A DNA stretch of 36,953 nucleotides, taken from an uncultured Peptococcaceae bacterium. Lineage in GTDB: Bacteria; Bacillota; Peptococcia; Peptococcales; Peptococcaceae. This document shows positions 6,852 through 35,882 of the stretch, piece after piece. The stretch spans positions 1 through 36,953 of the forward strand of contig CATJSX010000080.1 in NCBI GenBank assembly GCA_949743265.1. The letters run 5' to 3'. The position numbers and the translations under genes were made by a program. Under the pieces are notes generated by a model. That model saw only the letters and a list, made by a program, of their open reading frames with translations. It was not told where the DNA came from and did not search any database. The first letter of the stretch is position 1, and each line of letters opens with the position of its first letter.

Positions 6852-6880
6852 TTGACGAAATAAACTAACTGTGATAGGAT
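6852..6880 (+). promoter_or_regulatory. Promoter of the methionine operon leader
   Basis: TTGACG (6852-6857) and TAGGAT (6875-6880) with exactly 17 bp between them. Transcription would start about 6887, giving a leader of roughly 375 nt before the first enzyme gene. The 6602-6851 stretch upstream holds no supported gene. Confidence 0.7.
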
Positions 6881-6923
6881 AAGCACATTAAAAATGAACT
6901 AACCACGAGAGGAGAGACTGATA

Positions 6924-7052
6924 ATGCGTACAGAAATTTTATCAAATCGTATGATGTGCTTATGTATGATGTGGAAATCAAGTGATTGCATCATACCATT
7001 TTTGTATGCGTTAAATACGGCTGTCTCTTTAAAAAAGCGATTGGCTAACTAA
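6924..7052 (+). CDS. Met/Cys-rich leader peptide of the methionine operon (candidate)
   Basis: A 42-codon ORF about 37 nt downstream of the expected transcription start, with a GAGAGGAG ribosome site. Residues 10-16 read MMCLCMM: four Met codons and two Cys codons within seven positions, followed by Trp. A third Cys is at 22. Met and Cys are rare amino acids, and the downstream operon makes homocysteine/methionine using reduced sulfur, so the composition matches the pathway as in classic leader-peptide attenuators. The second Met-Met pair falls in the 5' arm of a hairpin (6964-6971 with 6989-6996). The end of the ORF (7035-7043) is the segment that can pair with the terminator. No protein similarity is recognised. 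That it acts by being translated rather than through its product is inference. Confidence 0.6.
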   Translation: MRTEILSNRMMCLCMMWKSSDCIIPFLYALNTAVSLKKRLAN

Positions 7053-7110
7053 TACAAATAATGATATTGGGCAATTACTTGGGAGCGCTGTTACAGTCGC
7101 TTCCATTTTT
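6964..7110 (+). promoter_or_regulatory. Attenuator: Met-codon hairpin, anti-terminator segment and intrinsic terminator
   Basis: Three elements can be drawn. (1) An 8-bp stem, 6964-6971 with 6989-6996, whose 5' arm contains Met codons 15-16. (2) A 9-bp duplex with one wobble, 7035-7043 (AAGCGATTG) with 7094-7102 (CAGTCGCTT). (3) A terminator, 7081-7087 with 7098-7104, with a nested CTG/CAG stem and the T run at 7106-7110. Elements 2 and 3 are mutually exclusive because both use the terminator's 3' arm. A ribosome stalled at the Met/Cys codons leaves 7035-7043 free, favouring read-through. A ribosome reaching the stop at 7050-7052 covers it, favouring termination. No S-box (SAM-I) or T-box signature was seen in this leader. 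Confidence 0.6.
7081..7110 (+). terminator. Intrinsic terminator inside the methionine leader
   Basis: A 7-bp stem with one wobble pair (7081-7087 with 7098-7104) encloses a small inner stem, with ATTTTT directly after. It lies 150 bp upstream of the enzyme genes, so it can only make sense as a regulatory terminator. Confidence 0.75.
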
Positions 7111-7143
7111 ATTATCAGCCTAAAAAACGGAGGAATAGCCGAT

Positions 7144-7224
7144 ATGCAAAATTGTTATATTCATCAATGGTTTTATCTTTTGCGCCACAATTGGCGGCAT
7201 GAACGAATGCGACCAAATCAATAA
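7144..7224 (+). CDS. Second small ORF in the methionine leader
   Basis: A 26-codon ORF beginning MQNCYIHQWF, 33 nt after the leader terminator and 38 nt before the sulfhydrylase gene. A GGAGG site ends about 10 nt before its ATG. It is rich in aromatic, His and Arg residues. It has no recognisable family and no hydrophobic segment. It could be a translated spacer that couples translation into the operon, or chance. Its good ribosome site is the only positive evidence. Confidence 0.35.
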   Translation: MQNCYIHQWFYLLRHNWRHERMRPNQ

Positions 7225-7262: not shown

Positions 7263-8558
7263 ATGACTATGATTAAAGATACTTCCAACTGGGGATTTGA
7301 AACCAAACAGCTGCATATTGGACAGGAATTTCCCGATCCAGCAAGCGATGCCAGAGCAGTACCTATTTATCAAACGACATCCTATGTGTTCAAAAATTCA
7401 GCTGATGCAGCAGCGCGATTCAGTTTAGAAAAAGAAGGCAACATCTATGGCAGACTTAATAACTCAACACAAGATGTTTTGGAAAAACGTGTAGCGGCAT
7501 TGGAAGGCGGTGTAGCAGCACTGGCAACGGCTTCTGGTGCAGCCGCTATCACTTATACCATTCAAAATTTAGCTGAAAACGGCGATCATATTGTGGCGCA
7601 AAAAACCATTTATGGCGGAACGTACAATTTATTGGCACATACTTTGGCAAGCTACGGCGTTAGCACCACCTTTGTTAATATTCACGATCTTAGCGAAGTC
7701 AAAGCGGCTATTTTGCCTAATACAAAGGCAATTTTTATTGAAGCGTTAGGTAATCCCAACAGCGACATTCCTCATGTGGAAGCCTTAGCAGAAATTGCTC
7801 ATGAAGCAAAAATTCCGTTGGTCATTGATGCCACTTTTGCAACGCCTTATTTATTCCGTCCTATTGAGCACGGCGCTGATATTGTCGTTCATTCCGCTAC
7901 TAAATTTATGGGCGGTCATGGAACGACATTGGGCGGTATTATCGTTGATAGTGGCAAATTTGATTGGGAAGCCAGCGGCAAGTTTGCCTCTCTAGTAGAG
8001 CCCAATCCCTGCTATCACGGCGTATCTTTTACTAAAGATATCGGCGCTGCGGCTTTTGTCGCCAAAGCCCGCAATATATTACTGCGCGATATGGGTGCAT
8101 GTATTTCACCATTTAATGCATTTCTGCTTTTGCAAGGTTTGGAAACTTTATCTTTGCGTGTGGAACGCCATGTAGAAAATACCAAAAAAGTTTTGGCGTT
8201 TCTTGTCAATCATCCGCGTGTGGAAAAAGTTAATCATCCAGCGCTGCCCGATCATCCTAATCATGACTTGTATGAAAAATATTATCCTAATGGCGGCGGC
8301 TCCATCTTTACCATTGAAATTAAAGGCGGTGCCAAAGAAGCGCAAGATTTTATTGATCGTTTACAGATTTTTTCACTTTTAGCCAACGTTGCCGATGTGA
8401 AGTCTTTGGTGATTCATCCTGCCAGCACAACGCACGCACAGCTCACAGAAGAAGAATTACTGGATCAAGGCATCAAACCTAATACGATACGACTATCTAT
8501 CGGCACAGAAAGCATTAAAGATATTATTGCCGATCTGGAACAAGCACTTAATGCATAA
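7263..8558 (+). CDS. O-acetylhomoserine sulfhydrylase (PLP, Cys/Met metabolism family)
   Basis: A 431-residue fold-type I PLP enzyme of the Cys/Met metabolism family. It starts with WGFETKQLHIGQ and has PIYQTTSYVF, NIYGRLNNST and the PLP-lysine motif HSATKFMGGHG with Lys214. The long form (about 430 residues) and the motif pattern match MetY-type O-acetylhomoserine aminocarboxypropyltransferase. That enzyme makes homocysteine from O-acetylhomoserine and sulfide, rather than the shorter cystathionine gamma-synthase (about 380). Its neighbour is an acetyl-type MetA, which supplies O-acetylhomoserine, so the two form a direct-sulfhydrylation pathway. The ATG at 7263 follows AGGAGA. Regulated, by inference, by the attenuating leader upstream. 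Confidence 0.9.
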   Translation: MTMIKDTSNWGFETKQLHIGQEFPDPASDARAVPIYQTTSYVFKNSADAAARFSLEKEGNIYGRLNNSTQDVLEKRVAALEGGVAALATASGAAAITYTIQNLAENGDHIVAQKTIYGGTYNLLAHTLASYGVSTTFVNIHDLSEVKAAILPNTKAIFIEALGNPNSDIPHVEALAEIAHEAKIPLVIDATFATPYLFRPIEHGADIVVHSATKFMGGHGTTLGGIIVDSGKFDWEASGKFASLVEPNPCYHGVSFTKDIGAAAFVAKARNILLRDMGACISPFNAFLLLQGLETLSLRVERHVENTKKVLAFLVNHPRVEKVNHPALPDHPNHDLYEKYYPNGGGSIFTIEIKGGAKEAQDFIDRLQIFSLLANVADVKSLVIHPASTTHAQLTEEELLDQGIKPNTIRLSIGTESIKDIIADLEQALNA

Positions 8559-8612: not shown

Positions 8613-9539
8613 ATGCCAATCCGAATCAAAGGTACTATGCCGGTAGTACAAAAATTGGAAGCAGAAAACATTTTTGTGATGACCGAAAAACGAGCAATTC
8701 ATCAAGATATTCGCCAACTGCGGATCGCTATTGTCAATATCATGCCACAAAAAGAAACAACAGAACTTCAATTATTGCGCTTGCTTTCCAATTCACCGCT
8801 GCAAGTAGAGATAACGTTCATTCGCTTGGAAACACATCGTTACAAAAATGTATCGACATCATATTTGGAGGAACATTATAGATTATTTAACGAAATCAAA
8901 AATATCCGTTTTGACGGTTTGATTATTACTGGCGCGCCAGTGGAAAATTTAGAATATGAAGATGTTGATTATTGGGATGAGATTACCGAAATCATGGCAT
9001 GGAGCCAAACCCATGTCACCTCAACGTTATATATTTGTTGGGCGGCACAAGCGGGACTGTACTATCATTATGGCATTCCTAAATATACGCTGCCGAAAAA
9101 ATTATCTGGTATTTTTCTGCATCGAGTAAAACGTCGGTCATCTAAGCTGATGCGGGGATTTGATGATGAATTTTATGCGCCGCACTCTCGGTATACCGCT
9201 GTATCAACGGAAGAAATCAACAAAAGAGACACCTTAGAAATATTGGCTGAATCCGATGAAGCTGGTCCTTATATCATTTTTACCAAAGGCGGTAAACAAA
9301 TTTTTGTCAATGGTCATCCCGAATATGATGCCATGACGTTGGCCGAAGAATATGAACGGGACAAAAAACGCTATAGCGATCCCGTCATGCCGCAAAATTA
9401 TTTTCCTGACGACGACCCACAAAAAGTGCCGCCTATGCGGTGGAGAAGTCACGGCAATATGCTGTTGTCCAACTGGCTCAATTATTTTGTTTATCAAATT
9501 ACACCATATGATATTGATCAACCAGTAGAAAATATTTAG
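8613..9539 (+). CDS. metAA: Homoserine O-acetyltransferase, MetA family
   Basis: A 308-residue MetA-family protein starting with MPIRIKGTMPVVQKLEAENIFVM. Cys142 in YICWAAQAGLYY is the acyl-accepting Cys. His and Glu of the triad fall in the FVNGHPEYD segment. The residue known to decide acyl-donor choice in this family is at 111: Glu in acetyl-CoA-using enzymes, Gly in succinyl-CoA-using E. coli MetA. Here residue 111, in GAPVENLEYE, is Glu, so acetyl transfer is predicted, matching the O-acetylhomoserine sulfhydrylase just upstream. It makes O-acetylhomoserine for homocysteine synthesis in the cytoplasm. It lies 54 nt after the sulfhydrylase and ends the operon at the terminator at 9568-9604. 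Confidence 0.95.
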   Translation: MPIRIKGTMPVVQKLEAENIFVMTEKRAIHQDIRQLRIAIVNIMPQKETTELQLLRLLSNSPLQVEITFIRLETHRYKNVSTSYLEEHYRLFNEIKNIRFDGLIITGAPVENLEYEDVDYWDEITEIMAWSQTHVTSTLYICWAAQAGLYYHYGIPKYTLPKKLSGIFLHRVKRRSSKLMRGFDDEFYAPHSRYTAVSTEEINKRDTLEILAESDEAGPYIIFTKGGKQIFVNGHPEYDAMTLAEEYERDKKRYSDPVMPQNYFPDDDPQKVPPMRWRSHGNMLLSNWLNYFVYQITPYDIDQPVENI

Positions 9540-12516: not shown

Positions 12517-14550
12517 TTAAACGTCTTCAGTAAAGATTTGATATACTGGAGCGCCTTCGCACTGAGCGGGCATTCTAGTACCTAACAGAATCGCCATAGT
12601 TGGTGCAACGTCAACCTGACGAATCATACGATCGGTTTCATAACCTTGTTTAATACCAGCGCCTGCTGCAATAAAGATTGGACCAGCAGAAGTATCGCAT
12701 TCACCCCAAGAGGTAGATAGACTGTCGTCATGGTCATGTTCATAACCTTCGGCCATAGCGTAAACGATATCGCCACATTGTGGATAATCGCCGCCTAAAC
12801 CAATCAAAGCAGCATCTCTGCGACGCAATGCTAAAGCAACGATACGTTTGCCGGTTACTTTATCTTTGTAGCCGTACAAAGCTGTAATAATTTCTTCTTC
12901 TAATTCAAATTGATCAGCAGGATCAACGATGCCATGATCGCTGCGACCTTTCAAATTGAGATAGATATACATTTCGCGGTTAGCGACTGCTTTGGTTTTG
13001 CTCCAATCAATGGTTGGACGTCCGTTTTCATCAGTAGTCATGGTAGTAAAGCCTAATTCGCTCATGATAGAAACGTTACACCCTGTATCGCCAAGCCCTC
13101 TGAGGCCATGAGTCGGGCAGACTTGCGCATGGTCAGATGTGATGATGAATGTCCAGCCTTTATCTAATAAATGAAGGAAACGACCAATATAGCGGTCAAT
13201 TTGAGTATAAACGTCCAACATGAATTTTTCATATTCTTTTGGTTCTAAGTTTGGACGACCAGTTTTCATTTCACGGATAAACATGTGCTTCTGCAAATCC
13301 GGTGAATGGAAATGAGAGAATATAACATCGTAATCATGATGTTCAATCAAATAATTGAGTGAAGCACTTTGCCAATCCAAAGTATGTTCCCAGCAAGCGT
13401 GCATACAATCACTGATTAACTGTTTGTCACCGCCACCTAAAGTAGATGTTGGTGGCGGAAAACCAACGTTGTCCAAAATTTCTTTGTGTAATGTTTGTGG
13501 ATGCCACATTTTATTCATAGCAGTTTCCATGGAAGCTGAAACCCACATTTTAACACGGGAACCATCAGCGGCAATTTCTAAAACGCGCATATCGCGATTG
13601 CAGCTAATAGGATCGTCATGCTTAATACCTTCGTCAACAATGTCACGAACATATTCGCCGTTTTTGATAACAACCATTGGTTCTGCGTCTTTTTTGTTTT
13701 TGTACAACGCAACGCGGTCGTATTCACCTTTTTCATTTTTCAAAAGCAATGCTGGACGACGAATCAAACCTTTGGAGAATAAAATCACAAATTCTTTAGC
13801 GCCTGTCGGAGCGTTTGCCCATTTATCGTCAGCATCTGTTAATGGGGACAAAGAAGCATCTACAGGAATGTTAATGTAATCCCCTTGTCCATCTTTCCAA
13901 GGATCTATAACATAAGATGCCCAACCATCACCATGAGCGCCGCTGGTTAAGCCTGCCAAACCTGTAGCACTGGTGCCGACTTCTTCTTCCTCATCAAGAC
14001 CTGTAATAACGCAAGGAACTTCACTGCTGGAAGAAGCCTGTGTTTTAAACGCTGCACGAACATTGTTTGGCGAAGCAATAACGATAAATTCATTATCAAA
14101 TTGAGCAGTACTCATATTGACACTCCCTGGAGAAGTACCGTCAACAACGCTCAAATTAGGATTATCGCTGCTTGGCGGCCAAGCGCTGCCGGGCCAATGC
14201 CAAACTAAAGTTTTGTAACCAGCTTCTGCCGTAACGTTCCATAATTGTTCAGCTTTGCAGTCTTGGGAATTAAAATTTAATGTCAGCAGATTCAAATCTC
14301 CGCCTTGTCTGAAAAATCCTGTGCAAGTGTGAGTCATTGGATAAGCGCCGGTGCAAAGTGTTGTCCATTGTGGCGGCGTTACCGTCGGCATTGCGCCTAA
14401 AAGCATCAAGTCATGACGAGCAGCACCTCTTTCAATAACTTGTTTGACATTAGGCATAACGCCCATATCAACGTATTTTCTGGTTAGTCTTGGGTCCATA
14501 GCGTCCAGACCAATGACAAACACTTTTTTGGATAATGCTTCACGTTTCAT
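12517..14550 (-). CDS. Alkaline-phosphatase-superfamily phosphodiesterase/nucleotide pyrophosphatase-like protein (paralogue 1)
   Basis: A 677-residue cytoplasmic protein with no signal peptide. It carries the metal-site pattern of type I phosphodiesterase/nucleotide pyrophosphatase enzymes. These are Asp16 in VIGLDAMDP, a nucleophile candidate Thr58 in MPTVTPPQW, Asp and His in HSPDLQKH, Asp-His in TSDHAQV, and a late His in EHDHDDSLST. A long insertion of about 200 residues separates the first and second motif groups. The substrate is unknown. It is clearly paralogous to the gene at 26641-28662; both share DPRLTRKYVD, RGAAR, DLMLLG, LVWHWPGS and CEGAPVYQI. The ATG at 14550 is preferred to the adjacent GTG at 14553 because of spacing from the GAGGAG site. 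Single gene with its own promoter. Confidence 0.8.
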   Translation of the reverse strand: MKREALSKKVFVIGLDAMDPRLTRKYVDMGVMPNVKQVIERGAARHDLMLLGAMPTVTPPQWTTLCTGAYPMTHTCTGFFRQGGDLNLLTLNFNSQDCKAEQLWNVTAEAGYKTLVWHWPGSAWPPSSDNPNLSVVDGTSPGSVNMSTAQFDNEFIVIASPNNVRAAFKTQASSSSEVPCVITGLDEEEEVGTSATGLAGLTSGAHGDGWASYVIDPWKDGQGDYINIPVDASLSPLTDADDKWANAPTGAKEFVILFSKGLIRRPALLLKNEKGEYDRVALYKNKKDAEPMVVIKNGEYVRDIVDEGIKHDDPISCNRDMRVLEIAADGSRVKMWVSASMETAMNKMWHPQTLHKEILDNVGFPPPTSTLGGGDKQLISDCMHACWEHTLDWQSASLNYLIEHHDYDVIFSHFHSPDLQKHMFIREMKTGRPNLEPKEYEKFMLDVYTQIDRYIGRFLHLLDKGWTFIITSDHAQVCPTHGLRGLGDTGCNVSIMSELGFTTMTTDENGRPTIDWSKTKAVANREMYIYLNLKGRSDHGIVDPADQFELEEEIITALYGYKDKVTGKRIVALALRRRDAALIGLGGDYPQCGDIVYAMAEGYEHDHDDSLSTSWGECDTSAGPIFIAAGAGIKQGYETDRMIRQVDVAPTMAILLGTRMPAQCEGAPVYQIFTEDV

Positions 14551-14614
14551 CACTATCTCTCCTCTAAATCAAAATTGAACCAAATTACCGTTAGCTATTT
14601 GGTTTCTTGTGTCT

Positions 14615-26640: not shown

Positions 26641-28662
26641 ATGAGACAAACGGCAGACAAAATTATTGTACTAGGAATTGATGGTATGGATCCTAGATTA
26701 ACCAGAAAATATGTGGATCAAGGATATTTACCTAATCTTGCTCAATTTATTCAGCGCGGAGCTGCTAGGAAGGATTTGATGCTTTTAGGCGGTCATCCAA
26801 CGGTAACGCCTTCTATGTGGACGACATTAGCATGCGGTTGTTATGCGACGATACATGGCATTACTGATTTTTACCGACAAAATCCTGCTCATTTAGATCA
26901 GCTGGATTATAATTTAGATTCGCGGTTATGTCAAGCGCAGCAAATTTGGAATGTAACTGCCGAAAACGGCAAAAAGACCCTTGTTTGGCACTGGCCCGGT
27001 TCATCATGGCCGCCGTCGTCATCAAGTGAGAATTTACATGTTGTGGACGGTTCTAGTCCCGGCGGTGTGAATATGAGTAATTCGCAGTTTGAAGCTGAAT
27101 ATTTAGTAGTAGCCGACAGCAGTTATACAGACGTTTCTTTTAAACCTAAAAGTGGCAATGAAATCACGCCTTGTATTATTACGGACTTGGAAGTAGAAGA
27201 TCCCACTAAGCAAAAGAAATTTGGTAACGAAAACACTGGCAAAAATGGTTTTAGTGTGTTAATTACCAAATTCGGCGAAGGAGCAGGCAGCAAAGATTAT
27301 AAATTTGATATTGCCGCCTCTCCCATCAAAGCGGCAGAAAAATGGCAGATTGCGATACCAAAAGGCGCTAAAGAGTTTGTTCTTTTGCTTTCGGGCGGGT
27401 TGATTCAACGCAATGGGCTGATTTTATGTAATGAAATGGGCGTTTATGACCGTATTGTACTTTATAAAAATAAAAAAACCGAAGAACCGATTGTTACGCT
27501 AATGTTAGATGAATTTAAGCCCTATGTTCATGATGAAGCCATTAAAAACGATGAGGTGCACCAAGTTGTTCGTCATTTGCGGCTTTTGGAATTGACGCCT
27601 GACGGCAATCATTTAAAACTGTATGTATCAGCAGCAATGGATAAGGATAACGATACGCTTTTTCACCCTAAAAGATTGTATCAAACCGTTAAAGAAGCTG
27701 CTGGTACGCCACCACCTTCTTCTATGCTTTTTGCTGCAAAAAGCAAAGCACTTTTTCATAAATGTGCGTTAGCTTCTTGGGAAGTTTCTGCCAATTGGCA
27801 GGCTAAAGCGTTGTTAACTTTGTTAAAAACTGAGCAGTATGAAATGGTTTTTTCTCATTTTCACAATATTGATATTCAGGATCACACTTTTTATAAATAT
27901 ATGGCGGAAGGAATTGAGCAAATGACGCCACAGGATTTTGAGGAATTGTCGCGAGCAATTTACCAGCAAACCGATCGTTATTTAGGACAATTTTTACCGC
28001 TTTTGGACGAAGGTTGGACGATCTTTATTGTGAGTGATCATGGTTTAGTTGCGCATGGCAATCAAGTGCCACTTATTGGCGATATGAATGGTTTAAATGT
28101 AGGGCTAATGAAAGAATTAGGCTTCACCGCGCTTAAATGCGATGAACAAGGTCAAGAGATCAAAGCGATTGATTGGAGCCGTACAAAAGCTGTAGCCAAC
28201 CGCGGTTGTCATATATATCTTAATCTTAAAGGGCGCAATCCAGAGGGCATTGTGGCGCCAGAAGATCAATATGAAGTTGAAGAGGAAATTATGACGGCAT
28301 TGTACGGCTATCGTCATCCTGATACAGGTAAACGAGTGATTGCGTTAGCATTACGCAATAAAGATGCCGTACTCTTAGGTCTGGGGGGCAGAGAATCGGG
28401 CGATATCGTTTATTTTACAGCTGAAGGATATAATTATGACCATACGGATGCTCTTTCGACAACGTATGGTATTTTGGATACCAGCGCATCGCCGATCTTT
28501 ATTGCAGCGGGCAAAGGGATCAAAGCAAATCATATAACGGAACGGTATGTGCGTGAAGTGGATTTAGCGCCAACGGTAGCATTATTAAGTGGATTGCCTA
28601 TGCCTGCTGAATGTGAAGGCGCGCCGGTTTATCAAATTTTAGCTGATGGGTTTGGCTGGTGA
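26641..28662 (+). CDS. Alkaline-phosphatase-superfamily phosphodiesterase/nucleotide pyrophosphatase-like protein (paralogue 2)
   Basis: A 673-residue cytoplasmic protein, paralogous along its whole length to the product of 12517-14550. The metal-site pattern is Asp14 in GIDGMDP, Thr56 in HPTVTPSMW, DIQDH, SDHG and NYDHTDALST. The C-terminal part reads DTSASPIFIAAGKGI, ending in CEGAPVYQI. The middle third (about 150-330) is the most divergent from the paralogue, which may reflect different substrates. The start follows GAAGGGAAG. About 200 bp downstream is a carboxylate transporter gene on the same strand, so uptake and hydrolysis could be linked, though there is no shared short-spaced operon. 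The substrate is unknown. Confidence 0.8.
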   Translation: MRQTADKIIVLGIDGMDPRLTRKYVDQGYLPNLAQFIQRGAARKDLMLLGGHPTVTPSMWTTLACGCYATIHGITDFYRQNPAHLDQLDYNLDSRLCQAQQIWNVTAENGKKTLVWHWPGSSWPPSSSSENLHVVDGSSPGGVNMSNSQFEAEYLVVADSSYTDVSFKPKSGNEITPCIITDLEVEDPTKQKKFGNENTGKNGFSVLITKFGEGAGSKDYKFDIAASPIKAAEKWQIAIPKGAKEFVLLLSGGLIQRNGLILCNEMGVYDRIVLYKNKKTEEPIVTLMLDEFKPYVHDEAIKNDEVHQVVRHLRLLELTPDGNHLKLYVSAAMDKDNDTLFHPKRLYQTVKEAAGTPPPSSMLFAAKSKALFHKCALASWEVSANWQAKALLTLLKTEQYEMVFSHFHNIDIQDHTFYKYMAEGIEQMTPQDFEELSRAIYQQTDRYLGQFLPLLDEGWTIFIVSDHGLVAHGNQVPLIGDMNGLNVGLMKELGFTALKCDEQGQEIKAIDWSRTKAVANRGCHIYLNLKGRNPEGIVAPEDQYEVEEEIMTALYGYRHPDTGKRVIALALRNKDAVLLGLGGRESGDIVYFTAEGYNYDHTDALSTTYGILDTSASPIFIAAGKGIKANHITERYVREVDLAPTVALLSGLPMPAECEGAPVYQILADGFGW

Positions 28663-32743: not shown

Positions 32744-33928
32744 ATGCTAAGTTTAACAAAGATGTTGACAGGCGACGTGTATTATGGTGATGAATTACGC
32801 TATAGCGAAAAATCCAAAAATCAACGGCATGGTGTTAGTGAAGGGCGCGGACCGGTGGTTGCTTGGAATTATACTAGGACATGCAATTTAAAGTGCGTGC
32901 ATTGCTATTCCAACTCGGAGGCAAAAGCCTACGATAATGAATTAACAACAGATGAAGCCTTGGCGCTTATCGATCAGTTAGCGGATTTTAAAGTGCCGGT
33001 TATTTTGTTTTCCGGTGGGGAGCCGTTGATGCGGCAAGATTTTTTCACTTTGGCGCAACATGCCAAAGAAAAAGGCATTAGACCGACATTATCGACTAAT
33101 GGTACGCTAATTACGCCGGAAATTGCCCAGAAGCTCAAAGATGTTGGCGTTGGTTACGTAGGAATTAGTTTGGACGGTTTGCGTTCGGTAAATGACCGCT
33201 TTCGTGGCGTTGAAGGCGCTTTTGATCGTGCTATGCAGGGGATTCGCAACTGTCGGGCTGTTGGGCAACGAGTAGGACTGCGTTTTACTATTAACAAAAA
33301 CAACTTTAATGATGTGGGTGCTATTTTAGATTTGATGGAAACGGAAGAAATTGACCGCATCTGTTTTTATCATCTGGTTTACTCTGGACGAGGCAACGCC
33401 ATTGTTCACGATGATTTGAATCATGAAGAAACCCGTCAGGTAATGGATTTGATTATTGAGCGGGTAGAAGATTTTCATCGACGGGGATTAAAAAAAGAAG
33501 TGCTGACAGTGGATAATCATGTTGATGGCGTTTATTTGTATTTGAAATACAAAGATAAAGATCCTCAACGGGCACAGTACATTTATCAACTTCTAAGTAC
33601 GAATGGCGGCAATCGTTCGGGCATTGCTTTTGCTAATATTGACAATGAGGGCAATGTTCATCCTGATCAATTTACGCAGCACCACACGTTTGGCAATATC
33701 CGAGACCGTTCTTTCCAAGAAATTTGGATGGATGAAACCAACCCGTTGATGAAAGGGTTGAAGAATCGTAAGGGGTTATTACAAGGGCGTTGTCAAAATT
33801 GTGTGTGGCTTGACGTTTGCAACGGCAATTTCCGAGCTAGAGGAGAAGCAGTGACAGGTGATATTTGGGGATTTGATCCAGCATGTTATTTGACGGACGC
33901 AGAGTGTGCCGTGGAACGACCGGAGTAA
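32744..33928 (+). CDS. nirJ1: Radical SAM protein NirJ1 / AhbC-type (siroheme-dependent heme synthesis)
   Basis: A 394-residue radical SAM protein. The N-terminus (LTGDVYYGDELRYSEKS, then GRGPVVAWNYTRTCNLKC) is characteristic of the NirJ1/AhbC group. The SAM cluster Cys are 47, 51 and 54 (CNLKCVHC), FSGGEPL follows, and the C-terminal SPASM/Twitch-like region has CQNCVWLDVC and a last Cys in DPACYL. In the alternative heme pathway AhbC removes the acetate side chains of 12,18-didecarboxysiroheme to give Fe-coproporphyrin III. The NirJ name comes from heme d1 synthesis, but no other nir genes are here. The next genes encode the NirJ2-type protein and both siroheme decarboxylase subunits, with short gaps, so heme b is the more likely end product. 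Confidence 0.88.
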   Translation: MLSLTKMLTGDVYYGDELRYSEKSKNQRHGVSEGRGPVVAWNYTRTCNLKCVHCYSNSEAKAYDNELTTDEALALIDQLADFKVPVILFSGGEPLMRQDFFTLAQHAKEKGIRPTLSTNGTLITPEIAQKLKDVGVGYVGISLDGLRSVNDRFRGVEGAFDRAMQGIRNCRAVGQRVGLRFTINKNNFNDVGAILDLMETEEIDRICFYHLVYSGRGNAIVHDDLNHEETRQVMDLIIERVEDFHRRGLKKEVLTVDNHVDGVYLYLKYKDKDPQRAQYIYQLLSTNGGNRSGIAFANIDNEGNVHPDQFTQHHTFGNIRDRSFQEIWMDETNPLMKGLKNRKGLLQGRCQNCVWLDVCNGNFRARGEAVTGDIWGFDPACYLTDAECAVERPE

Positions 33929-33946
33929 AAAAAGGAGGGTTTGTTT

Positions 33947-34936
33947 GTGATCATTTCATGGAATACGACCAATAAGTGTAATATGTTTTGTGATCATTGT
34001 TATCGGGAATCAGGCAAAGAAGCCGGCGGCGAATTGACCACTGCTGAAGGCAAAAAGTTGATTGAAGAAATTGCTAGAGCGGGTTTTAAAATCATGATTT
34101 TTAGCGGTGGCGAGCCGTTAATGCGAGATGATATTGAAGAATTGATTGCTTATGCTAAAACACAAGGTTTGCGTCCTGTTTTGGGGACTAATGGATCGTT
34201 GATTACTGAAAAAGTAGCACATCAGTTAAAAGCTGCCGGACTAATGGGAGCAGGCATTAGTTTAGATAGTTTGGATAAAGTGAAACATGATCGTTTGCGT
34301 AAATTGGATCATGCTTGGGATTTGGCAGTAGAAGGCATGAAAAATTGCCACAAAGCCGGATTAGGTTTTCAAATTCATACGACGGTGATGGATTGGAACC
34401 AACATGAGGTAGAATCACTGACCGATTTTGCGGTGGAAATGGGAGCAGTTGCACACCATATTTTCTTTTTGGTACCTACTGGACGAGGCGAAAAAATTGT
34501 CGATCAAGCATTAAAGAGAGAGGATTATGAAAATCTTTTGATACGCATTATGACCAAAGCGAAAGAAGTGCCTATTGAAATTAAGCCGACTTGTGCGCCT
34601 CAATTTATGCGGGTAGCGGAACAGCTGGGATTAAATTTGCGTTTTGGCAAAGGCTGTTTGGCTGGTACTAGTTATTGTATTATTGGTCCTAAAGGCGATG
34701 TACAACCCTGCGCTTATATGAAAATGGCCATTGGCAATGTTAAGGAAACGCCTTTTGATGTCATTTGGGCGGAAAGCCCTGTTTTTCAAACGCTGCGTAC
34801 GGCAGCATATTCGGGCTTGTGCGGTCAGTGTGGTTATCAAGCGAAATGCGGCGGCTGCCGCGCAAGAGCCGCTTATTATCACGAAGGAGATTATATGAGC
34901 GAAGATCCTTTGTGCATTTTGCAGCAGAATTCCTAA
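33947..34936 (+). CDS. nirJ2: Radical SAM protein NirJ2 / AhbD-type (putative heme synthase)
   Basis: A 329-residue radical SAM protein. The GTG at 33947 is the start because AGGAGG lies 8 nt before it and the family begins with IISWNTTNxCN. The cluster Cys are 11, 15 and 18 (CNMFCDHC), then FSGGEPL. The C-terminal half is Cys-rich (CAPQF, GKGC, SYC, QPC, then CGQCGYQAKCGGCRA and a last Cys), enough for an auxiliary cluster. AhbD oxidatively decarboxylates the two propionates of Fe-coproporphyrin III to vinyls, giving heme b. NirJ2 proteins in Firmicutes are usually proposed for this step by context. It begins 18 nt after nirJ1 and precedes ahbA by 10 nt. Confidence 0.85.
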   Translation: MIISWNTTNKCNMFCDHCYRESGKEAGGELTTAEGKKLIEEIARAGFKIMIFSGGEPLMRDDIEELIAYAKTQGLRPVLGTNGSLITEKVAHQLKAAGLMGAGISLDSLDKVKHDRLRKLDHAWDLAVEGMKNCHKAGLGFQIHTTVMDWNQHEVESLTDFAVEMGAVAHHIFFLVPTGRGEKIVDQALKREDYENLLIRIMTKAKEVPIEIKPTCAPQFMRVAEQLGLNLRFGKGCLAGTSYCIIGPKGDVQPCAYMKMAIGNVKETPFDVIWAESPVFQTLRTAAYSGLCGQCGYQAKCGGCRARAAYYHEGDYMSEDPLCILQQNS

Positions 34937-34946
34937 GGAGGCGTTT

Positions 34947-35408
34947 ATGTATCAATTAGAAGCGGTGGATAAAGCTATCTTGATGATCTTGCAGAAAGGA
35001 ATCCCTTTTGATTCACGTCCGTATTTTGCTATTGGACAAGCGGTTGGTTTGACGGAGCAGGAAGTGATTGAACGAATCAAACGTATGAAAGAAGAACAGA
35101 TTATTCGACGGATGAGCGGCTTTTTTAATTCTCGCAATCTAGGCTATACGTCTGTTTTGTGCGCTGTTTCGGTAGCTGAAGAAAATATTGCTCAAGCTGC
35201 TGAACTCATCAATAGCTATGCGGGGGTCACCCATAATTATGTTCGAGATCATCAGTACAATTTATGGTTTACTTTGATCGCTGCTGGTGAAACAGCGCGG
35301 GAAAACATTCTTGACGAAATAGAGTCTAGTCCTTATGTAGACAAAATGCTGCGCTTGTATACTAATCGGCGTTTTAAAATCAATGTGACCTTTGATTTGG
35401 AGGTGTAA
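34947..35408 (+). CDS. ahbA: Siroheme decarboxylase subunit, AhbA (Lrp/AsnC-like)
   Basis: A 153-residue protein with an Lrp/AsnC-like fold: an N-terminal winged HTH (about 5-62) and a C-terminal RAM-like domain containing VTHNYVRDHQYNLWFTL, the conserved heme-binding/catalytic segment of AhbA/AhbB/NirD-type proteins. It is an enzyme subunit rather than a regulator. With AhbB it decarboxylates siroheme at C12 and C18 to 12,18-didecarboxysiroheme. AAGGAGG lies just upstream. It is followed by ahbB after 3 nt, supporting a stoichiometric complex. Confidence 0.88.
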   Translation: MYQLEAVDKAILMILQKGIPFDSRPYFAIGQAVGLTEQEVIERIKRMKEEQIIRRMSGFFNSRNLGYTSVLCAVSVAEENIAQAAELINSYAGVTHNYVRDHQYNLWFTLIAAGETARENILDEIESSPYVDKMLRLYTNRRFKINVTFDLEV

Positions 35409-35411
35409 AGA

Positions 35412-35882
35412 TTGCTGAGTCCATTGCAAATAGAGATTGTGCGAGCTTTACAAAATGATTTGCCGCTGGTGCCAGAGCCATATAAAGTATTAGCTGATGG
35501 TCTGGGTATTTCTGAAGAAACGTTTTTAAACGAAATGAAAGTGCTGCAGCAGGCAGGGTGTTTAAAACGAATTTCTATAGCGCTGCGGCACAACAATGTG
35601 GGCTATACTATCAATTCTATGATTGTTTGGGATGTGCCAGAAGAGCGAGTAAACGAAGTCGGTGAAAAATTGGCGGCGCATGAACGTGTTACGCATTGCT
35701 ATGACCGCAATAAAGCACCAGATTTTGACTACAATTTGTATTCGATGGTTCATGCGGTAAGTGAGGCTGATTACCAACAGCTTGTCATGGAATTGCAAGA
35801 ATTAGTTAAGCCGGTCAAATTTGCTGAGTTAAAAACATTGGCAGAGCTAAAGAAAATAGGGATGAAGTATTTTATGGAGTAA
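35412..35882 (+). CDS. ahbB: Siroheme decarboxylase subunit, AhbB (Lrp/AsnC-like)
   Basis: A 156-residue partner of AhbA with the same two-domain layout: HTH at about 5-60 with GCLKRISIALRHNNVGYTIN, then VTHCYDRNKAPDFDYNLYSMVH, the AhbB form of the conserved segment. The start is TTG, six nt after GGAGGTG at the end of ahbA. It is the last gene of the four-gene heme cluster and is followed by a terminator at 35903-35937. The enzymes that make siroheme itself are not in this window. Confidence 0.88.
   Translation: MLSPLQIEIVRALQNDLPLVPEPYKVLADGLGISEETFLNEMKVLQQAGCLKRISIALRHNNVGYTINSMIVWDVPEERVNEVGEKLAAHERVTHCYDRNKAPDFDYNLYSMVHAVSEADYQQLVMELQELVKPVKFAELKTLAELKKIGMKYFME

Follow-up and report, generated by a model that had tools for sequence, protein, structure and literature searches.

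The DNA analysed here (the window) is a stretch of 36,953 nucleotides from an uncultured Peptococcaceae bacterium (genome G000). On its forward strand it carries two methionine genes separated by 54 bases: metY, for O-acetylhomoserine sulfhydrylase (7263-8558; TIGR01326, 610 bits for a cut-off of 495), and metA, for homoserine O-acetyltransferase (8613-9539; NF047918, 467.7 bits for a cut-off of 460.5). Upstream of metY, on the same strand, lie a candidate promoter (6852-6880), a Met/Cys-rich small ORF, uORF1 (6924-7052, MRTEILSNRMMCLCMMWKSSDCIIPFLYALNTAVSLKKRLAN), an intrinsic terminator (7080-7110) and, between the terminator and metY, a second small ORF, uORF2 (7144-7224, MQNCYIHQWFYLLRHNWRHERMRPNQ), which a previous sequence-only reading of this DNA had overlooked.

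Methionine genes of the Bacillota are the textbook case of SAM riboswitch and T-box control. As the sequence-only reading had stated, no such RNA was found at the locus: Rfam searches of the window returned neither a SAM-I (S-box) riboswitch (RF00162) nor a T-box at the gathering score, and no known element except two tRNAs turned up in the window and 40 related metY loci. No S-box was detected anywhere in the G000 genome. The situation differs in the bacterium's own family, where five of the six members tested (e.g. G006:C31 and G003:C2) have a SAM riboswitch directly upstream of metY. The gene itself is present in all 12 own-family relatives searched, with a product only 44-49% identical to that of the window, whereas Clostridia from rumen and gut have MetY proteins that are 80-87% identical to it. 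Phylogeny of 92 MetY proteins separates the window protein widely from those of its family and places it within a supported group of nine (99/87), every one of which bears uORF2; among 46 genomes of the class, uORF2 was found in G000 only. A DNA search of 60 relatives with the whole leader gave no true relatives, and the leader is therefore not shared with the own family. Judged from identity and phylogeny, metY is a horizontal acquisition from Clostridia, and the simplest reading would be that the gene was imported along with its leader and took the place of a metY under S-box control. This would amount to the swap of one regulator for another in the same pathway through horizontal transfer of a gene with its leader. 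Over the genomes compared, an S-box was present in 8 of 30 with uORF2, in 1 of 12 with uORF1 and in 15 of 21 others, counts which are to be read as tendencies because many of these genomes are draft assemblies.

The peptide encoded by uORF1 (42 codons) opens with MRTEILSNRMMCLCMMW, and its ATG at 6924 is preceded by the ribosome-binding site GAGAGGAGAG (6908-6918). Codons 10-16 (6951-6971) read MMCLCMM, i.e. six Met or Cys in seven codons. ORF, codon run and ribosome site had all been pointed out before and are all present. Such a density is rare. In 1.12 Mb of strand sequence (80 metY loci plus the window), 1,621 ORFs of 20-80 amino acids are preceded by a ribosome-binding site; no more than three of them have at least six Met or Cys in any stretch of seven residues, and all three were leaders of the uORF1 type, the window copy and those of L006 and L013, which occupy the equivalent place upstream of metY. 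The promoter is a weaker case. The hexamers proposed by the sequence-only reading are there (TTGACG-17-TAGGAT, 9 matches out of 12, with a TG before the -10), but the quality of the match is by itself that of chance, with five such matches found for 4.6 expected in a region of comparable size; TTGACA-type promoters do occur at the equivalent position in relatives.

The terminator (3:4) is a hairpin, 7080-7105, of sequence TGGGAGCG-CTG-TTA-CAG-T-CGCTTCCA, followed by the T run TTTTTATTAT. Its bulge hid it from a simple terminator scan; it was recovered by folding, and its presence bears out the earlier description. Its general form, GGRAGC...GCTTCC plus a T run, is kept in all six loci of what is called group 1 below, despite sequence drift. 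The leader RNA as a whole folds more stably than 100 shuffled versions (z = -3.7).

Alternative helices were sought in an alignment of four homologous leaders (window, L127, L123 and L151), in which four helices pair in nearly all sequences despite base changes. Two of them make up a first state, A. One is the 1:2 protector hairpin, in which Met/Cys codons (strand 6964-6973) pair with 6987-6996; all four relatives form it, with a both-side change, and the first Met-Met copy (6949-6958) could pair instead. The other is the start-codon helix between 6924-6933 and 7002-7011, for which 39 of 40 cells are paired in the four relatives, with one both-side change. The other two form state B, the antiterminator stem P1 or 2:3 (6978-7082), in which 6978-6989 pairs with 7071-7082 and 7001-7007 with 7052-7058. 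Paired cells amounted to 98.8% for state A, with two both-side changes, and to 95.2% for state B, with three; slid partners gave 30-51% for state B and 12-59% over both helix sets. The covariation is drawn from four sequences. For the 1:2 helix, shuffles by themselves are not decisive (64 of 500). The two states use common strands and are mutually exclusive, and P1 extends into the base of the terminator 5' arm, an overlap that fails in L123. The sequence-only reading had instead drawn an antiterminator that captured the 3' arm of the terminator, through a 9-bp complement between 7035-7043 and 7094-7102, and had noted it as a departure from the textbook layout. The complement is exact, but none of the three closest relatives (L123, L127 and L151) has it in full, the equivalent place offering 4-5 bp or nothing, and it was rejected as the antiterminator. 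Since the conserved competitor, 6978-6989, which follows directly on the Met/Cys codons, pairs with 7071-7082 and so runs into the 5' arm, the layout is after all the classical 1:2 / 2:3 / 3:4 one.

Met/Cys-run ORFs with a ribosome site occupy the same position in 13 loci, the window and 12 others; metQ or an ABC ATPase gene lies downstream in three of them and metY in the rest. Group 1 comprises, besides the window, L006 (MNMCMCMMMC), L013 (MMCMCVMC), L127 (MCMCMMCM), L151 (MCMMC) and L123 (MMCLAGNC). In L123 both leader peptides (1280-1543, motif at 1501) stand ahead of a gene for a taurine/nitrate-type ABC transporter ATPase, and the uORF1 stop codon is, unlike that of the other loci, within the terminator 5' arm. 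Group 2 consists of seven leaders (L122, L149, L161, L162 and L064 upstream of metY; L119 and L120 upstream of metQ) that cannot be aligned to group 1: the codon run is common to both groups, the P1 sequence is not. All seven have an alternative pairing of their own, between a UCUCC after the codon run and the CCGGGAG of the terminator, and in several folds the UCUCC segment pairs with the codon run instead. The T runs of their terminators are weak. The sequence-only reading had staked its case on the conservation of the codons and stems in relatives, with no RNA family taking their place; the comparison showed codon run, terminator and alternative helices to be conserved, and no Rfam family at the locus.

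These data also bear on another reading, in which the small ORFs are incidental and the leader is a riboswitch of an undescribed kind that binds SAM, homocysteine or some comparable metabolite. A long conserved P1 stem adjoining a terminator, in a genome without a detected S-box, would fit such an RNA. We nevertheless regard this reading as very improbable: half of P1 lies within a translated ORF, the conserved columns fall mainly in helix strands, beyond which there is no clear invariant core of an aptamer kind, and it is the Met/Cys run, of exceptional density, that recurs in the 13 loci and persists in group 2.

In order to look at the competition between the helices, the RNA of the six group 1 leaders was folded as it is before the terminator 3' arm is made, with a ribosome placed on the leader. 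For a ribosome sitting at the first or second codon of the Met/Cys run, the terminator 5' arm was paired upstream with a mean probability of 0.66-0.82 in five leaders out of six (window, L127, L151, L006 and L013; the exception was L123). This pairing dropped to 0.23-0.25 in the window, L127 and L013 (three of the four testable leaders) once the ribosome had reached the stop codon; the contrast was weak for L006 (0.77 for the early stall versus 0.54 at the stop). The predicted sequestration of the 5' arm was lost for later stalls in the Met/Cys run. The model without a ribosome also sequesters the 5' arm, and the protector state is therefore not clearly preferred. In the complete RNA at equilibrium, the antiterminator is not favoured and the terminator forms in nearly every state, which means that antitermination must be kinetic.

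Taken as it stands, uORF1 resembles a classical attenuator in every feature that can be read from sequence: an operon mRNA that begins with a short ORF and its ribosome site, a run of regulatory codons, mutually exclusive helices, and an intrinsic terminator before the structural genes. When charged Met-tRNA or Cys-tRNA runs short, the ribosome would stall in MMCLCMM and would keep the Met/Cys stretch from pairing with the next segment, so that P1 could form, take the base of the terminator 5' arm and let RNA polymerase read through. With the tRNAs charged, the ribosome would reach the stop codon, beside the P1 3' strand; P1 would be blocked and the terminator would form. Stalling, readthrough and the nature of the sensed signal are, in this scheme, what we infer.

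In an alternative scheme, the Met/Cys codons would bypass the intrinsic terminator and act by way of Rho, or by affecting how uORF2 or metY is translated. The formation of the terminator in all states at equilibrium and the weak T runs of group 2 would fit this alternative, as would the region behind uORF2: the spacer between uORF2 and its gene, mostly 30-80 bases, is unstructured in nearly all loci, and no terminator follows uORF2 in nearly all of them. There is also a precedent in the mycobacterial cysteine leaders, which have no terminators and for which Rho has been suggested (PMC1262725). It is nonetheless unlikely, given that hairpin and T run have both withstood drift in six of six group 1 leaders and that five of these behave as antitermination would require when folded before the terminator is complete. 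Attenuation at the terminator is the reading retained for uORF1.

The start of uORF2 is preceded by the ribosome-binding site GGAGGA (7129-7135). Its relatives were first found upstream of metY in Clostridia loci, and a survey of about 1,050 genomes with several queries, mostly a DNA pattern of the core, brought the total to 71 distinct sites. They define the core R-x-N-[FWY]-R-x-[GE]-R-M, ending in CGA-ATG, which is at 7183-7209 in the window. Controls with reversed patterns gave zero matches whenever CGA was specified and, as expected, scattered ones when the Arg codon was left open. The next gene 3' of the site is metY in 63 cases, metQ in four, and an uptake gene in three (a sulfate-binding protein in L139, an SsuA-like sulfonate-binding protein in L160 and the ABC ATPase of L123). 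The remaining site, L131, has the core pattern but no sulfur gene anywhere near, and was taken as a chance occurrence. The non-CGA matches of a permissive class-wide search (L128, L130, L140, L148 and L153) either fail the peptide pattern used or are without the downstream gene, and were considered as noise.

The Arg codon before Met was CGA in 56 of the 57 sites found without specifying that codon, against a background of about 13% of the Arg codons in neighbouring genes. Many synonymous codons are used for the first two Arg, the Asn and the Gly; only CGA is fixed. The codon after Met (61 sites) is a stop in about half of the cases, mostly TGA, and Cys in about 40%, and the tails often contain Cys (MCHC, MCRCYK, MCFCCK, MCLCMCTR). 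The window copy departs from this consensus, with H-E for x-G, then RPNQ and neither stop nor Cys after M; the L016 copy has an E at the same place of the core. The window uORF2 may be partly decayed, as if after transfer.

Conservation is confined to the 9-11 C-terminal residues, where that of the amino acids exceeds that of the nucleotides, as in arrest peptides. Conservation at the protein level together with a single fixed codon is as expected of a cis-acting leader peptide. That the amino-acid sequence is kept while synonymous codons vary freely would also suit a small protein acting in trans, a notion we find hardly credible: only the C-terminal end is conserved, a methionine or sulfur gene follows uORF2 directly in nearly every case, two copies stand before different genes in several genomes (G079 and G080), and a fixed CGA codon would matter in cis only. 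As a cis-acting leader, uORF2 would present the nascent-chain motif R-x-N-[FWY]-R-x-G-R-M to the ribosome, which would pause at the leader end, where an almost invariable and poorly decoded CGA stands before ATG and a stop or Cys codon comes next; such a pause, directly upstream of the gene, would follow the supply of sulfur amino acids. It could act on the gene by way of Rho access, mRNA protection or coupling. Since the spacer is unstructured, a fold hiding the metY ribosome site is unlikely, and this candidate was dropped; so was an RNA hairpin around the core (CGTCA...TGACG), which exists in some loci only and is not general.

Most uORF2 loci have no uORF1, which makes the two modules separable. 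Leader-peptide regulation of the locus is well supported by the peptides, the Met/Cys run, the terminator, the exclusive covarying helices and the association with genes for methionine and for sulfur uptake, with known riboswitches absent. We therefore think it probable that the metY-metA operon is under two leader peptides in series, the uORF1 attenuator and then the uORF2 cis leader. The Met/Cys leader with an attenuator, as put forward by the sequence-only reading, is in this way retained, with another antiterminator and as one half of a bipartite element. A broader proposal, which we hold tentatively, is that uORF2 represents an undescribed family of sulfur-regulon arrest peptides, whose nascent chain, with its obligatory CGA-AUG, would turn the ribosome itself into a sensor of methionine, of cysteine or of a metabolite derived from them; the family would have spread across many Clostridia orders, and some lineages would combine it with an attenuator that counts Met/Cys codons and takes over the role of the SAM riboswitch.

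A few further observations were made on uORF2 loci. One carrier of uORF2, Oscillospiraceae bacterium MH27-2 (L072), is a cultured organism. Outside the Bacillota, a Treponema MAG (L062 198) has a uORF2 variant upstream of metY, in which K (AAG) replaces the R (CGA) before Met. About 40 of 69 uORF2 loci, L003, L013, L151 and L161 among them, have a conserved inverted repeat (ACATACTAAACAGATAGGTATTAT; ACCTAAACGATAGGT) that lies 0-35 bases 3' of the -10 hexamer; it is absent at the window promoter (6881-6915). The repeat looks like a repressor operator, the repressor being perhaps, as a guess, of the Rrf2/CymR type.

Attenuation by leader peptides is classic for Trp, His, Leu and similar operons. 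The trp, his, leu and thr attenuators share with uORF1 a run of codons for the pathway product, exclusive 1:2 and 2:3 helices and a terminator before the operon; they differ from it in that the regulatory codons of uORF1 are Met and Cys mixed and that a second conserved leader follows. The conserved C-terminal residues of uORF2, ending at the stop codon, recall TnaC, in which they end likewise. To our knowledge, the combination of a sulfur regulon with a CGA-ATG signature matches no known arrest peptide. Two small ORFs in one leader, as in the window, are also found in the tandem-ORF leader of Salmonella mgtCBR (PMC3641672). Neither TnaC nor mgtCBR has any apparent sequence kinship with uORF2, whose arrest is putative. 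In Firmicutes, his leader peptides are known in place of T-boxes (PMC2965389). Cysteine leaders of actinobacterial sulfur genes have been reported, without terminators (PMC1262725), and polycysteine ORFs of mycobacteria are mentioned in PMC13236596, which cites Canestrari 2020. Like many uORF2 copies (MC..., MCHC, MCRC), these leaders have Cys codons near the stop and sulfur genes behind. They differ from uORF2 by its R-x-N-[FWY]-R-x-G-R-M core and fixed CGA-ATG, and from uORF1 by its Met codons and its intrinsic terminator, reportedly absent there. The window uORF2, which ends in RMRPNQ*, has no polycysteine run beside its stop. NCBIfam and Pfam gave no match to a curated leader-peptide family, which is weak evidence with queries this short. 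In the literature searched by concept and by peptide letters, with subscription papers largely outside its scope, we found no methionine leader peptide and no description of uORF1 or uORF2.

Some Clostridia, and one genome of another class to which the operon came from them, appear to count Met/Cys codons instead of using SAM riboswitches and T-boxes, which would add an amino-acid class to ribosome-mediated attenuation. uORF2 is more general: its signature, CGA-ATG after R-x-N-[FWY]-R-x-G, is short and searchable, it flags genes for methionine and for sulfur uptake in many uncultured bacteria of gut and rumen, and it makes a candidate nascent-chain or codon-context sensor directly testable.

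Elsewhere in the window, two large paralogous proteins, GLDAMDPRLTRKYVDMG / GIDGMDPRLTRKYVDQG, are encoded 12 kb apart, at 12517-14553 on the reverse strand and 26641-28662 on the forward strand; they look like members of the type I phosphodiesterase / nucleotide pyrophosphatase family. Finally, the region 32744-35882 encodes two radical-SAM proteins and then two Lrp/AsnC-like small proteins, an arrangement that resembles an alternative-heme (ahb/nir) set.
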